DNA from: a virus
Direction: 5' to 3' (one strand)
Virus record (IMG/VR): IMGVR_UViG_3300007344_000325
Span: 1-20,919 of that record
Length of the DNA: 20,919 bases
The notes beneath the pieces were generated by a model that worked only from the letters and a program-made list of their open reading frames with translations, did not search any database and was not told the DNA's origin. Position numbers and translations under genes: made by a program. This document shows positions 4,533 to 9,809 of the stretch, piece after piece. How positions within the stretch are numbered: position 1 is the stretch's first letter; every line of letters begins with the position of its first letter.

Positions 4533-4553
4533 CTTGCTCCCTTCTATCGCGAG

Positions 4554-4626
4554 TGGGCCGGGAGGGAATCGAACCCCCAACTGTCGGATTAAAAGTCCGC
4601 TACTCTGCCTATTGAGTTACCGGCCC
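4554..4626 (-). tRNA. tRNA-Lys (anticodon TTT)
   Basis: Read on the minus strand, a 7-bp acceptor stem (GGGCCGG with CCGGCCC) closes a cloverleaf with a D-arm (ACTC...GAGT), an anticodon loop CTTTTAA (anticodon TTT) on a CGGA/TCCG stem, and a T-arm with GGGTTCGATTCCC. The discriminator is A, and CCA is not encoded. The anticodon stem is closed by a G-A mismatch. The gene lies inside the minus-strand operon just upstream of the nuclease gene and is probably co-transcribed. It reads AAA and AAG codons, which are common in the Lys-rich late proteins. Confidence 0.95.
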
Positions 4627-6310: not shown

Positions 6311-6491
6311 AACTTCTCCTCTTCAGTTGGACTTCGAACTCTTCGTCTTCTCGTTCGAGAACATAATATCTGCGTAGATTCTGAGCAACAGTCACAGCAG
6401 TTTCCTGATCATAATACCTTTCGATCAGGAAAGGCTCGCCAGTTGCCCGTTCCACAACGATGACGTGATAGTCCTGTTCTTGCTCCTCCAT
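6294..6491 (-). CDS. hypothetical protein overlapping whiB (65 aa)
   Basis: ATG at 6491 opens a frame whose first 22 codons are read inside the WhiB gene in another frame, and whose end overlaps the DUF6378-like gene by 17 bases. The protein is strand-helix in pattern (YHVIVVERATGEPFLIERYY, then QETAVTVAQNLRRYYVL) with an acidic segment. A run of G/A-rich sequence (GAGAGAGGGACGC) precedes the start. It is unrecognised; the long overlap either marks a true overlapping gene or shows that the WhiB reading frame has been extended. Confidence 0.6.
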   Translation of the reverse strand: MEEQEQDYHVIVVERATGEPFLIERYYDQETAVTVAQNLRRYYVLEREDEEFEVQLKRRSYVSAV

Positions 6492-6691
6492 GCGTCCCTC
6501 TCTCTTGGAGACATCCCTCCGTACATTCCGTAGTCAATCGAATGACTGACTGCGTACAACAGGCACTGTTCCTGAACGTCGCAGGAATAACACACCTCCC
6601 TTACGAACGGGTCATACTGCATCCCATTCTCAGGGAAGAATATGCTTGTATCCATCCCACGACAGTTCGCATCATCTATCCAATCCCTCAT
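6425..6691 (-). CDS. whiB: WhiB-family iron-sulfur transcription regulator
   Basis: Four Cys at residues 10, 34, 37 and 43 (C-x23-C-x2-C-x5-C) match the 4Fe-4S ligands of WhiB proteins, and DYGMYGGMSPRERDAWR corresponds to the G-[VIM]-[WY]-G-G turn and following basic tail. WhiB-like proteins bind the host sigma factor region 4 and alter promoter choice or redox response; phage copies (for example mycobacteriophage TM4 WhiB) can repress host WhiB genes. ATG at 6691 overlaps the stop of the upstream gene (ATGA) with weak ribosome site, so translation is coupled. This is the best evidence for an actinobacterial host. The last 22 codons overlap the next gene. Confidence 0.9.
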   Translation of the reverse strand: MRDWIDDANCRGMDTSIFFPENGMQYDPFVREVCYSCDVQEQCLLYAVSHSIDYGMYGGMSPRERDAWRSKNRTITSSLWNGQLASLS

Positions 6692-7102: not shown

Positions 7103-7930
7103 TCATACAGGCGTGGAGAACTTCTTCCACTGCTCATCGGTCATGTTAGCGATACTGGTGTAGCAGGTGCAGTAATCGTCAGTCATGCTGCACGACTGGC
7201 AGATTTCGCACTCGTAACAGACACCGTCATACACGGACATGCCAGTGCAGAACTTGCACTGACCAATCGCCGGGTCTTCCTCGTACGTGTACGGGTCGAA
7301 GCCCTGCGTGCTGTCCGCCATAGACGGCTGCTGCCACTTAGCGTTCGGGTTGTACTTGGAGAACATACTGCTGACACTGCAGTACGACTTGTTGGAAAAC
7401 CAGATCGTCTTGACAGGATTCCAATGGCCCATGTGCTCGTTGGCAATATACGCACGGTCCCTGTTCTCCGTGCTAAGAAACACCAACTTGCTGTGCCCGA
7501 TGTACTCCTGAACCATGTCGAACAGGTAGTCGTCGTCAAGCCAGCCCTTCGGCAGTTTCGGAAGATACTCTTCCGTGAACACCCTGGTGTCAGACCGCTT
7601 GTCCTTCTTGTCGATTAGCACAGGGATAACACCATTGTGAATCATGGCAATGTTCTTGTTCACCATGAACGGATGGCAGTTGTACTCGTTGACCGTGCCA
7701 TGCGTAGCAATACGGAAGTGCACAAGCATCGGGCTGTGCTGACCGTGCATGTCCACAACACGCTCGTACTCTTCGAGCAGTCCCTTCAACTTCATCGACT
7801 TGAACGTGCAGACCTTGCCGCAGTCGTCGATGTATGCCAGGCCGCCGCCGTCAGGATTCGCATTCCAACTGTTGCGAATCTCCTGCTCAGTCAGCGTGCT
7901 GCCAGCATCCTGGTAGATGGCGATGCACAT
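7103..7930 (-). CDS. class II glutamine amidotransferase with C-terminal zinc ribbons
   Basis: The mature N-terminus after Met removal is Cys (MCIAIY), the nucleophile of class II (Ntn-type) glutamine amidotransferases. Further family marks are ANPDGGGLAY (26-33), VHFRIATHG (70-78) and IAMIHNGVI (94-102), which form the glutamine pocket. The enzyme would hydrolyse glutamine and deliver ammonia to a partner. The C-terminus (residues 225-256) carries eight Cys (CKFC, CYECEIC, C, C-T-C), fitting one or two zinc ribbons, which is not usual for the minimal domain. ATG at 7930 overlaps the amidoligase stop (TGATG) with GAGGAG just upstream, so the two are translationally coupled and probably form a complex. 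Confidence 0.85.
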   Translation of the reverse strand: MCIAIYQDAGSTLTEQEIRNSWNANPDGGGLAYIDDCGKVCTFKSMKLKGLLEEYERVVDMHGQHSPMLVHFRIATHGTVNEYNCHPFMVNKNIAMIHNGVIPVLIDKKDKRSDTRVFTEEYLPKLPKGWLDDDYLFDMVQEYIGHSKLVFLSTENRDRAYIANEHMGHWNPVKTIWFSNKSYCSVSSMFSKYNPNAKWQQPSMADSTQGFDPYTYEEDPAIGQCKFCTGMSVYDGVCYECEICQSCSMTDDYCTCYTSIANMTDEQWKKFSTPV

Positions 7931-9093
7931 CAGTCATTCTCCTCTACTGATCCGGTGATGTACTGGTAGATGGTAGCGTACTGCGGCTTGTCCGAAAGCC
8001 AGTTCTGATACTCGGACCAGTCAAGCCTGCCGAACAGGATCGACTGCACGGTGATAGTCCGTGTGTATTCGTACAACGAATCGACAAACTCTGCGACACG
8101 AACCAGCCCGTTCTTCGTCAGATTCGGACGGAAGTATCGCAACTCAATCGTCTCAGATGGTGTGATGTTGATGGCGGAATACCTGGAATGTCGGGCTGTA
8201 CGCTTCACAGCCTTCGACGGTTCCTTAGTAATCTCTACCATGTAATCGTTAGTCCACGATGCCCACTGCTCAGAGTCACGGCCAGCAACAGCCGTGCAAT
8301 GACCAGCGTTGACAGCCTGGAACTTCACGAACTTCCACATGTGCGAAGGTGTGAACGCAGAACGTGACACGTGAACGTGAAGGCCGCAGTTGCTGCGATG
8401 CCACGCACGTGCACCATTACTACGCAACCATTCGATCATGTCCCATGGCATCTTCTCACGGAACGCTTCGAGCGTCATAGGGTGAGTGACCATCTCTGCA
8501 CCAGACCATGACAGCGAACCGTCCGACTTGAAGTACACCGCGTCAGGCTCATACCAGGACTCGCCGAACCTTTCGCACGCCTGCTTCGCAAGCGTCGAAG
8601 CGTTCTCCATCTCAACTTCGAATCCCATGTACAGCCTGCCAGGGATCGGCAGATGCCGTGCACCGAGATCAGAGTGGAAGCGAAGCAGAGGACGCCACGA
8701 ATAGTTGTGGAGATCGTCCTCGTCTCCCATCCCACAGCACTCATCTCGGCTGTCTTCGTATGCGAAGATAGAACCGCAGTTTTCGCACGTGTAATCGCAC
8801 CCAGAGCACAGGTACATATCACCGTCTTCAAAAAAAGAAACCGGCGCGGAATACGCCATGCGTTCTGCATAGGCGAGACCCCACTGTGTTCTCAACTGGC
8901 GGTACACCGTATGTGGAAGGCCAATGCCTCCCATACGGCCGACGTGGTCGCAGCGTTCGCACATTGCGAACTGTTCGTTGTAGCAGTCCTCACATACGGA
9001 CTCCCACTGCGACTGCTCTGCGTCGTACTCCGTCAGTGTTGCATCACATAGCGTGCATACCAATCCGAGCAATGCTACCTGTCCAGCAGGCAT
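7930..9093 (-). CDS. amidoligase (Amidoligase_2-like) with N-terminal zinc ribbons
   Basis: The C-terminal two thirds match the ATP-dependent COOH-NH2 ligase (amidoligase) family related to glutamine synthetase: GFEVEMEN (157-164, metal-binding Glu), DGSLSWSGAEMVTHP (191-205), NCGLHVHVSR (235-244) and TIELRYFRP (315-323). Such enzymes join a carboxyl group to an amine; the substrate is not known. The first 120 residues hold twelve Cys, as CTLC, CEDC, CERC, CSGC, CENC and a CC pair, consistent with several zinc ribbons or treble clefs that may bind the target. ATG at 9093 is chosen because AGGAG lies five bases upstream; the longer in-frame version would be read through the leader hairpin. Coupled to the amidotransferase. 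Confidence 0.85.
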   Translation of the reverse strand: MPAGQVALLGLVCTLCDATLTEYDAEQSQWESVCEDCYNEQFAMCERCDHVGRMGGIGLPHTVYRQLRTQWGLAYAERMAYSAPVSFFEDGDMYLCSGCDYTCENCGSIFAYEDSRDECCGMGDEDDLHNYSWRPLLRFHSDLGARHLPIPGRLYMGFEVEMENASTLAKQACERFGESWYEPDAVYFKSDGSLSWSGAEMVTHPMTLEAFREKMPWDMIEWLRSNGARAWHRSNCGLHVHVSRSAFTPSHMWKFVKFQAVNAGHCTAVAGRDSEQWASWTNDYMVEITKEPSKAVKRTARHSRYSAINITPSETIELRYFRPNLTKNGLVRVAEFVDSLYEYTRTITVQSILFGRLDWSEYQNWLSDKPQYATIYQYITGSVEEND

Positions 9094-9138
9094 CTCTACT
9101 CCTCTCGGGTAACACCCCCACTCCACAGTGAGGGCGGG

Positions 9139-9246
9139 CTTGCCGGTCGGATCGTCCGGCGAACCGGGCAATAGCAGGCTGGCGGTAGCGCGCGAAGCGC
9201 GCTGCCAGCCTGCTATGCCAAGCAGCCGGACGAGACGACCGGCAAG
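9139..9246 (-). repeat. 108-nt extended hairpin in leader of amidoligase operon
   Basis: Outer arms 9139-9160 and 9225-9246 match at 20 of 22 positions; inner arms 9171-9183 and 9204-9216 pair perfectly over 13 bp; the tip 9187-9193 with 9197-9203 pairs over 7 bp around a 3-nt GAA loop. Most of the remaining bases form small internal loops. It lies between the Api92-like gene and the amidoligase start, so it would be in the leader RNA of that operon. It could be a regulatory leader, an insertion of a palindromic element, or an att-like site. Confidence 0.75.
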
Positions 9247-9275
9247 ACCTCCTCCACTCTGGCAAGGCATAGGGT

Positions 9276-9309
9276 GACGGAACGACCAGGCTTACGCCTG
9301 GCCGTCCGT
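9276..9309 (-). terminator. stem-loop after the Api92-like gene
   Basis: CCAGGC and GCCTGG flank a TTAC loop, with a partly matched extension (ACGGA...TCCGT) on both sides. It lies just past the stop codon of the minus-strand gene at 9318-9809 and before the large hairpin, where a terminator would be expected. No T-run follows, so strength is uncertain. Confidence 0.5.
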
Positions 9310-9317
9310 CAACCTCG

Positions 9318-9809
9318 CTACGCCGGATCGTGATGGTTCCGCTCAAACCCGTGCACCATGTCACCATCCTTCCAGATCATCTCACCATAGAACCCACCTT
9401 CCTCGTCCCACTCACAGTTCCAGTTGATAGTCGGATGATCTTGCGCCATCTTGTCAATCCACAGGGAAGGTGGACCCCATGGTGTGCGGAAATAATATTC
9501 GATGAAATCATCACCGATCTCGAACCGCTGATCACGCAAGTCCCACTTCACACCCCAATGGTTAGTGTTCCAGTCATACCAGTACCCATCGTACGGATAC
9601 TTGACCAGTTCCTCCCCTTCAGGGGCGTAAGTGTTCCACATCCACAGGTTCGGCTCAGGGTCAGAGACAACTACGCTTTCAGGCTGGTTGTTCTCATCCG
9701 TGCGCACCACCAGATACTCCTTCCGGCGGGCAAGAAACTTCTCGTGAAATCCTATCACATCCTTCATGTCTCCGCTAATGCGGAGCATGTTGTCACACCA
9801 GTTCGGCAT
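9318..9809 (-). CDS. Api92-like ferredoxin-fold phage protein (163 aa)
   Basis: The start MPNWCDNMLRISGD is the hallmark of the Api92-like/DUF1281 family (MPNWC-x-N, then a beta strand), and the aromatic segment WNTNHWGVKWD (about residues 80-90) is also typical. These proteins are common in phages, plasmids and their relatives and adopt a ferredoxin-like fold; their role is unknown. Trp and Asp/Glu are unusually common (a Trp-rich C-terminal half). ATG at 9809 follows GAGGAGGAAGACG. It precedes the amidoligase operon, but two hairpins lie between. Confidence 0.8.
   Translation of the reverse strand: MPNWCDNMLRISGDMKDVIGFHEKFLARRKEYLVVRTDENNQPESVVVSDPEPNLWMWNTYAPEGEELVKYPYDGYWYDWNTNHWGVKWDLRDQRFEIGDDFIEYYFRTPWGPPSLWIDKMAQDHPTINWNCEWDEEGGFYGEMIWKDGDMVHGFERNHHDPA

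Follow-up and report, generated by a model that had tools for sequence, protein, structure and literature searches.

A paired amidoligase and class II glutamine amidotransferase with cysteine-rich ribbons in a phage sequence: a candidate two-gene amidation system of mobile elements

Do an amidoligase (AL) and a class II glutamine amidotransferase (GAT), encoded by adjacent phage genes and each fused to a cysteine-rich ribbon, form a dedicated enzyme system, and what would such a system modify? The question arises from a locus within a 20,919 nt viral sequence (IMG/VR record IMGVR_UViG_3300007344_000325, positions 1 to 20,919; hereafter the window). Annotations of phage amidoligases go back years, and the open-licence literature searched yielded neither a substrate nor an experimental test of a phage AL-GAT pair. 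The locus described here is a minimal two-gene version, nearly always paired and carrying conserved, putative docking segments, which makes the substrate question testable; the pair is also carried by mycobacterial plasmids and by phages whose mycobacterial hosts can be cultured. Should the target prove to be a protein, this pair would give mobile elements a way to amidate proteins post-translationally.

Gene layout and predicted enzymes

Both genes lie on the minus strand. AL occupies positions 7930-9093 (387 aa, with its ATG at 9093) and GAT occupies positions 7103-7930 (275 aa); the AL stop codon and the GAT start codon have one base in common within a TGATG sequence (7928-7932), an arrangement through which the two genes are likely to be translationally coupled. 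Shine-Dalgarno-like AGGAG sites precede the AL start (9099-9103) and, within the end of AL, the GAT start (7939-7944). The same one-base overlap is found in 6 of 43 non-redundant loci selected by GAT and in 2 of 31 selected by AL. A longer AL beginning at 9270 (446 aa) was rejected: its leader hairpin, described below, would be translated, and the start at 9093 has the AGGAG site. A preliminary description of this DNA had proposed these coordinates and the TGATG overlap, together with twelve N-terminal cysteines in AL, eight C-terminal cysteines in GAT and intact catalytic motifs in both; the reading frames, the shared base and the cysteine counts are all confirmed, and the motifs are intact.

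AL is predicted to be an ATP-dependent carboxylate-amine ligase of the Amidoligase_2 family with a fold like that of glutamine synthetase and glutamate-cysteine ligase (GS/GCS). It scores 28.6 bits against PF12224 (Amidoligase_2), above the cut-off of 22, and matches amidoligase PHROGs, including PHROG 2443; the alignment used for AlphaFold2 modelling and conservation holds 52 sequences from viral relatives, 49 of which match PF12224 at E ≤ 0.01. The catalytic domain (residues 129-387; positions 7933-8709, minus strand) is modelled mostly at pLDDT > 85, and Foldseek matches the model to YbdK (5.9e-6), glutamine synthetase (5.9e-4) and a plant glutamate-cysteine ligase. The active-site motifs are GxExE (157-161), KxDGS (189-193), ExV..P (200-205), GxHxH (237-241), R272, N309 and TxExRxF (315-321). 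Within them, G157, E159, E161, K189, D191, E200, P205, G237, H239, H241, R272, E317, R319 and F321 are invariant across all 52 sequences, so that the GxExE, GxHxH and ExRxF residues are fully kept, and S193, V202, N309 and T315 are at least 96% conserved. In four related loci (L036, L040, L051 and L065), the region upstream of the main AL holds another amidoligase-like ORF, which is shorter (about 268 aa).

GAT is a predicted glutaminase of the class II (Ntn) type with Cys2 as its nucleophile. It matches PHROG 25883 (1.7e-30) and a GlmS profile (7.6e-10), falling below the Pfam cut-offs for PF13230 (GATase_4; 20.0 versus 23 bits) and PF13522 (GATase_6; 20.4 versus 27 bits); these cut-offs are operational and do not define class II enzymes, and the assignment rests on fold and active site. 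Moreover, 52 of the 55 viral relatives aligned for AlphaFold2 modelling and conservation match GATase_4 at E ≤ 0.01. The catalytic domain (residues 1-182; positions 7385-7930, minus strand) is again modelled mostly at pLDDT > 85 and matches the glutaminase domain of GlmS (1xff, E 6.4e-8). Invariant in all 55 sequences are C2, R73, N84-H86-P87, H98-N99-G100, D114 and S179-N180, and W177 is 98% conserved. These residues include the marks of a class II enzyme, namely a catalytic Cys directly after the initial Met, the glutamine-binding Arg (R73), the Asn-Gly pair (N99-G100) and the Asp (D114). Overall, the family memberships proposed in the preliminary description hold for AL by both Pfam score and predicted fold; for GAT, the window protein itself does not reach the Pfam thresholds, and the claim stands on its GlmS-type predicted fold and the matches of its relatives.

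The folds also admit a different reading, resembling EgtA-EgtC, in which the GCS-fold ligase would attach an acyl group, glutamyl or another, and the Ntn enzyme would later take it off; GAT would then serve a small-molecule or peptide pathway as a hydrolase instead of donating ammonia. YbdK and GCS are the nearest matches to the AL fold, and the GAT model also hits EgtC (4zfk, E 6.1e-5), with a weak NCBIfam EgtC match (0.013). GlmS is nevertheless the better structural and profile match for GAT, the pairing of AL and GAT is immediate and limited to two genes, and no further pathway genes were recognised in the window or its sister contig, making this pathway a rather improbable one for the pair. 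AL and GAT could still act in successive steps instead of transferring ammonia.

Cysteine-rich ribbons and conserved pairing

The AL ribbon (residues 13-120; positions 8734-9057, minus strand) precedes the catalytic domain and contains twelve cysteines with five CxxC motifs (C13, C16, C34, C37, C45, C48, C96, C99, C103, C106, C119 and C120); all of these except C120 are conserved, at 73-92% across the 52 ALs. The GAT ribbon (residues 225-256; positions 7163-7258, minus strand) lies at the C-terminus and has eight cysteines (C225, C228, C238, C241, C244, C247, C254 and C256), which are 67-87% conserved across 55 GATs. Their spacing in the window is C-x2-C-x9-C-x2-C-x2-C-x2-C-x6-C-x-C, and most of the 55 relatives follow C-x2-C, a variable spacer, C-x2-C-x2-C-x2-C, a short spacer and C-x-C. 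Among 72 non-redundant loci with both genes, at least two CxxC motifs are found ahead of the AL catalytic domain in 58, in the GAT tail in 53, and on both proteins in 45. Because some related GATs lack a C-terminal ribbon, it is not strictly required. Across 42 independent pairs, dN/dS was 0.18 for the AL catalytic domain, 0.28 for the AL ribbon, 0.09 for the GAT catalytic domain and 0.24 for the GAT ribbon; with all four segments below 0.3, both ribbons are under purifying selection, less tight than that on the catalytic domains.

The ribbons may bind zinc. Both are predicted at low pLDDT, and the proposal is therefore drawn from the spacing of their cysteines; the LIM and zinc ribbon profiles of Pfam gave no match above cut-off for AL or GAT of the window, and LIM was matched by 2 of the 52 ALs (best 3.9e-7). 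If the ribbons instead bind DNA or RNA, the pair could modify nucleic acids or nucleotides. Phages are known to modify their own DNA, and the ribbons weakly resemble Zn-ribbon RNA-binding proteins, with compositional bias in the matches (best E 0.011); against this, no thymidine or deazaguanine modification genes were recognised among the ORFs examined, and we regard a nucleic acid target as highly improbable.

Evidence that the two genes belong together comes from viral contigs, which were searched separately with AL alone and with GAT alone, leaving the window's sister contig out of the counts. GAT is directly downstream of AL on the same strand in 78 of 79 AL-selected loci, the exception being a contig that ends inside AL, and AL is directly upstream of GAT in 73 of 78 GAT-selected loci. 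When the loci are made non-redundant at 70% identity, the same arrangement holds in 30 of 31 AL loci and 38 of 43 GAT loci. Further, the AL and GAT distances are correlated (Mantel r 0.871, a value reached by 0 of 5000 permutations), a two-gene comparison that also reflects shared phage ancestry in part.

The named relatives include cluster S mycobacteriophages such as Marvin, Methylophilales phages, the podovirus ctgrD200 and mycobacterial plasmids, and both plasmids read carry the double ribbon. Within bacterial genomes, the best match comes from a short contig of Microbacteriaceae (39% identity). Most of the others are from Clostridia, where a ribbon-bearing AL adjoins a GlmS-like GAT without a tail ribbon, so the pairing persists even when the partner is very different; GAT lies within the fetched stretch in 74 of 80 loci. 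The system is not confined to actinobacteriophages: related pairs are present in marine phages of Methylophilales, in plasmids of mycobacteria and in clostridial genomes with relaxase/resolvase genes nearby. Ribbonless ALs in C. difficile phages (L007 and L250-L257) have no GAT within 5 kb, a single examined lineage that cannot establish a rule. A RimK/ATP-grasp-like protein lies near AL in 5 non-redundant loci (for example, L096, 1026-1802).

The surroundings of the clostridial pairs bear on what the pair might do. Among 37 non-redundant loci, DUF960 is near-upstream in 20 and a resolvase is downstream in 16, and relaxase-like and NikA-like genes recur nearby. Loci L228, L235, L226 and L191 have the order DUF960-AL-GAT-serine resolvase (some without DUF960) in differing chromosomal surroundings, and the arrangement is possibly a small mobile cassette. 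The pair might act in counter-defence or establishment by altering a protein of host defence or restriction, and its wide occurrence in phages and other mobile elements would then have an explanation. Consistent with such a role, the clostridial copies adjoin DUF960, serine resolvase and relaxase genes, a gut phage copy adjoins DUF3846, and some clostridial copies are near restriction or helicase defence genes. Those defence neighbours are anecdotal, however, as they come from hand-picked loci with no background rate, and the pair itself has no PADLOC match; we accordingly hold a counter-defence function to be unlikely.

The regions flanking the pair in the window were also analysed. A long, GC-rich nested hairpin with inverted arms occupies the AL leader (9123-9262, minus strand), and RNA folding of 9094-9330 gives a stability far beyond that expected by chance (z -11.9). 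The leader of the sister contig has a z of -10.5, L051 has a z of -9.6 with a different hairpin, and the other loci are weaker. Folding the 240 bases upstream of AL in 67 loci identified no counterpart in relatives, although one located farther upstream could be missed by folds of this length. The sister contig has 7 differences from the window in 11 kb, none of them within the hairpin, and it is too similar to show compensatory changes. The hairpin had been put forward as part of the system; it is real and exceptionally stable, and the folded loci give its membership in the system no support.

A WhiB-like regulator gene (6425-6691) lies downstream of AL and GAT and shares their strand, and such a gene follows the pair in 27 of 69 related viral loci. 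WhiB regulators are typical of Actinobacteria, and its presence here makes an actinobacterial host likely for the window phage. The only Rfam match in the search was a tRNA; the window has a tRNA-Lys (TTT) at 4553-4626 on the minus strand. The structural half of the window showed no DNA similarity to phages.

Overall, AL and GAT are almost always adjacent and in one order, they diverge in a correlated way, their active sites are conserved and their ribbons are constrained, all of which supports a dedicated two-gene system. The two-component system of the preliminary description is thus supported in part, through its enzymes, cysteine-rich segments and synteny, and its leader hairpin is not supported as a component.

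Predicted reaction and candidate targets

The fixed order, the overlap and the constraint on both proteins support joint action of AL and GAT, and family membership suggests the chemistry. The N-terminal Cys2 of GAT would hydrolyse glutamine to supply ammonia, AL would activate a carboxylate with ATP to an acyl phosphate, and the ammonia would react with the activated carboxylate, leaving a primary amide on a target macromolecule that is most likely a protein. The ribbons on the two enzymes would be putative zinc-binding docking modules that join the subunits or hold the target. We judge joint carboxylate amidation by this two-gene phage enzyme system to be reasonably probable; complex formation, ammonia transfer, zinc binding and the nature of the target are further predictions of the same scheme, and the cysteine-rich ribbons favour a macromolecular target.

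The bacterial cell wall is another candidate target, where the pair, like MurT-GatD and AsnB/LtsA, would turn a precursor carboxylate of peptidoglycan into an amide and, by changing the envelope, block superinfection or tune lysis. PMC10580990 reports a suggestion (Iyer 2009) that the amidoligase and GATase of phiEco32 alter the cell wall and in this way prevent superinfection, and MurT-GatD is a case in which an ATP ligase with a glutaminase can amidate peptidoglycan (PMC3267633). One ORF of the sister contig (L261, 11043-11858) also reads as an amidase-type endolysin when its sequence is inspected. Nonetheless, no signal peptide or membrane segment is evident by eye, an enzyme with a soluble precursor as its substrate would not usually carry cysteine-rich ribbons, and related pairs occur in phages of both Gram-positive and Gram-negative hosts, in mycobacterial plasmids and in clostridial loci with mobility genes, a distribution and architecture that leave a wall target with a low probability.

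Amidation of a protein carboxylate can be extended to a broader and more tentative proposal, namely that the double-ribbon AL-GAT pair is a widespread and so far unrecognised amidation system of mobile elements, whose matching ribbons on ligase and glutaminase recruit a common macromolecular target and which converts host-protein carboxylates to amides, possibly disabling defence. This wider picture is conceivable and, in our estimation, doubtful.

Comparison with known systems

AL-GAT pairs are already known from the literature on Marvin, phiEco32, LUZ24-like phages and OM43 phages. The islands of phiEco32 and LUZ24-like phages resemble the window in combining an amidoligase with a class II GAT, and in phiEco32 AL is directly upstream of GAT. 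They differ in also encoding an ATP-grasp enzyme and a GGCT/YtfP-like protein, and UFV-P2, which has AL, GAT and ATP-grasp together (PMC3890496), adds a COOH-NH2 ligase; further, the phiEco32 AL has no CxxC and its GAT is about 677 aa. No ATP-grasp was found among the window ORFs scanned and the 29 kb sister contig gave no match to GGACT (PF06094); its further ORFs, by reading sequence, look like virion genes and an amidase-type lysin. The window is therefore a minimal two-gene form in which the island genes of phiEco32 and LUZ24 were not recognised, within a genome that may be incomplete.

Functional analogues such as MurT-GatD, asparagine synthetase B and GlmS likewise have a glutaminase that supplies ammonia to a synthase, whereas their synthase folds are unrelated to AL. 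The glutaminase of MurT-GatD also belongs to a different class from GAT.

Closer in architecture are the clostridial DUF960-AL-GAT-resolvase loci, in which a ribbon-bearing AL is also directly upstream of a class II GAT; that GAT is from a GlmS-like clade and has no C-terminal ribbon, and the loci lie in bacterial genomes with relaxase or resolvase genes. The Methylophilales (OM43) phages MEP401 and MEP402 and the podovirus ctgrD200 have AL followed immediately by GAT and a cysteine-rich AL segment, as in the window, and differ from it by a GAT without the 8-Cys ribbon, a longer AL N-terminus and different hosts.

The window pair is of the type found in Marvin (cluster S), whose gp105-gp106 are an adjacent AL and GAT on one strand, with a ribbon N-terminal in AL and an 8-Cys ribbon C-terminal in GAT. 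Compared with the window, the Marvin proteins are about 30% identical, their genes are separated by 79 bases where those of the window overlap, and the Marvin AL has an extra C-terminal segment. According to PMC10580990, the Marvin pair was suggested (Mageeney 2012) to have a part in secondary metabolism or phage-host interaction. To these known pairs, the present analysis adds the conserved double-ribbon architecture, the quantified linkage of the two genes, and their presence in mobile elements other than phages.
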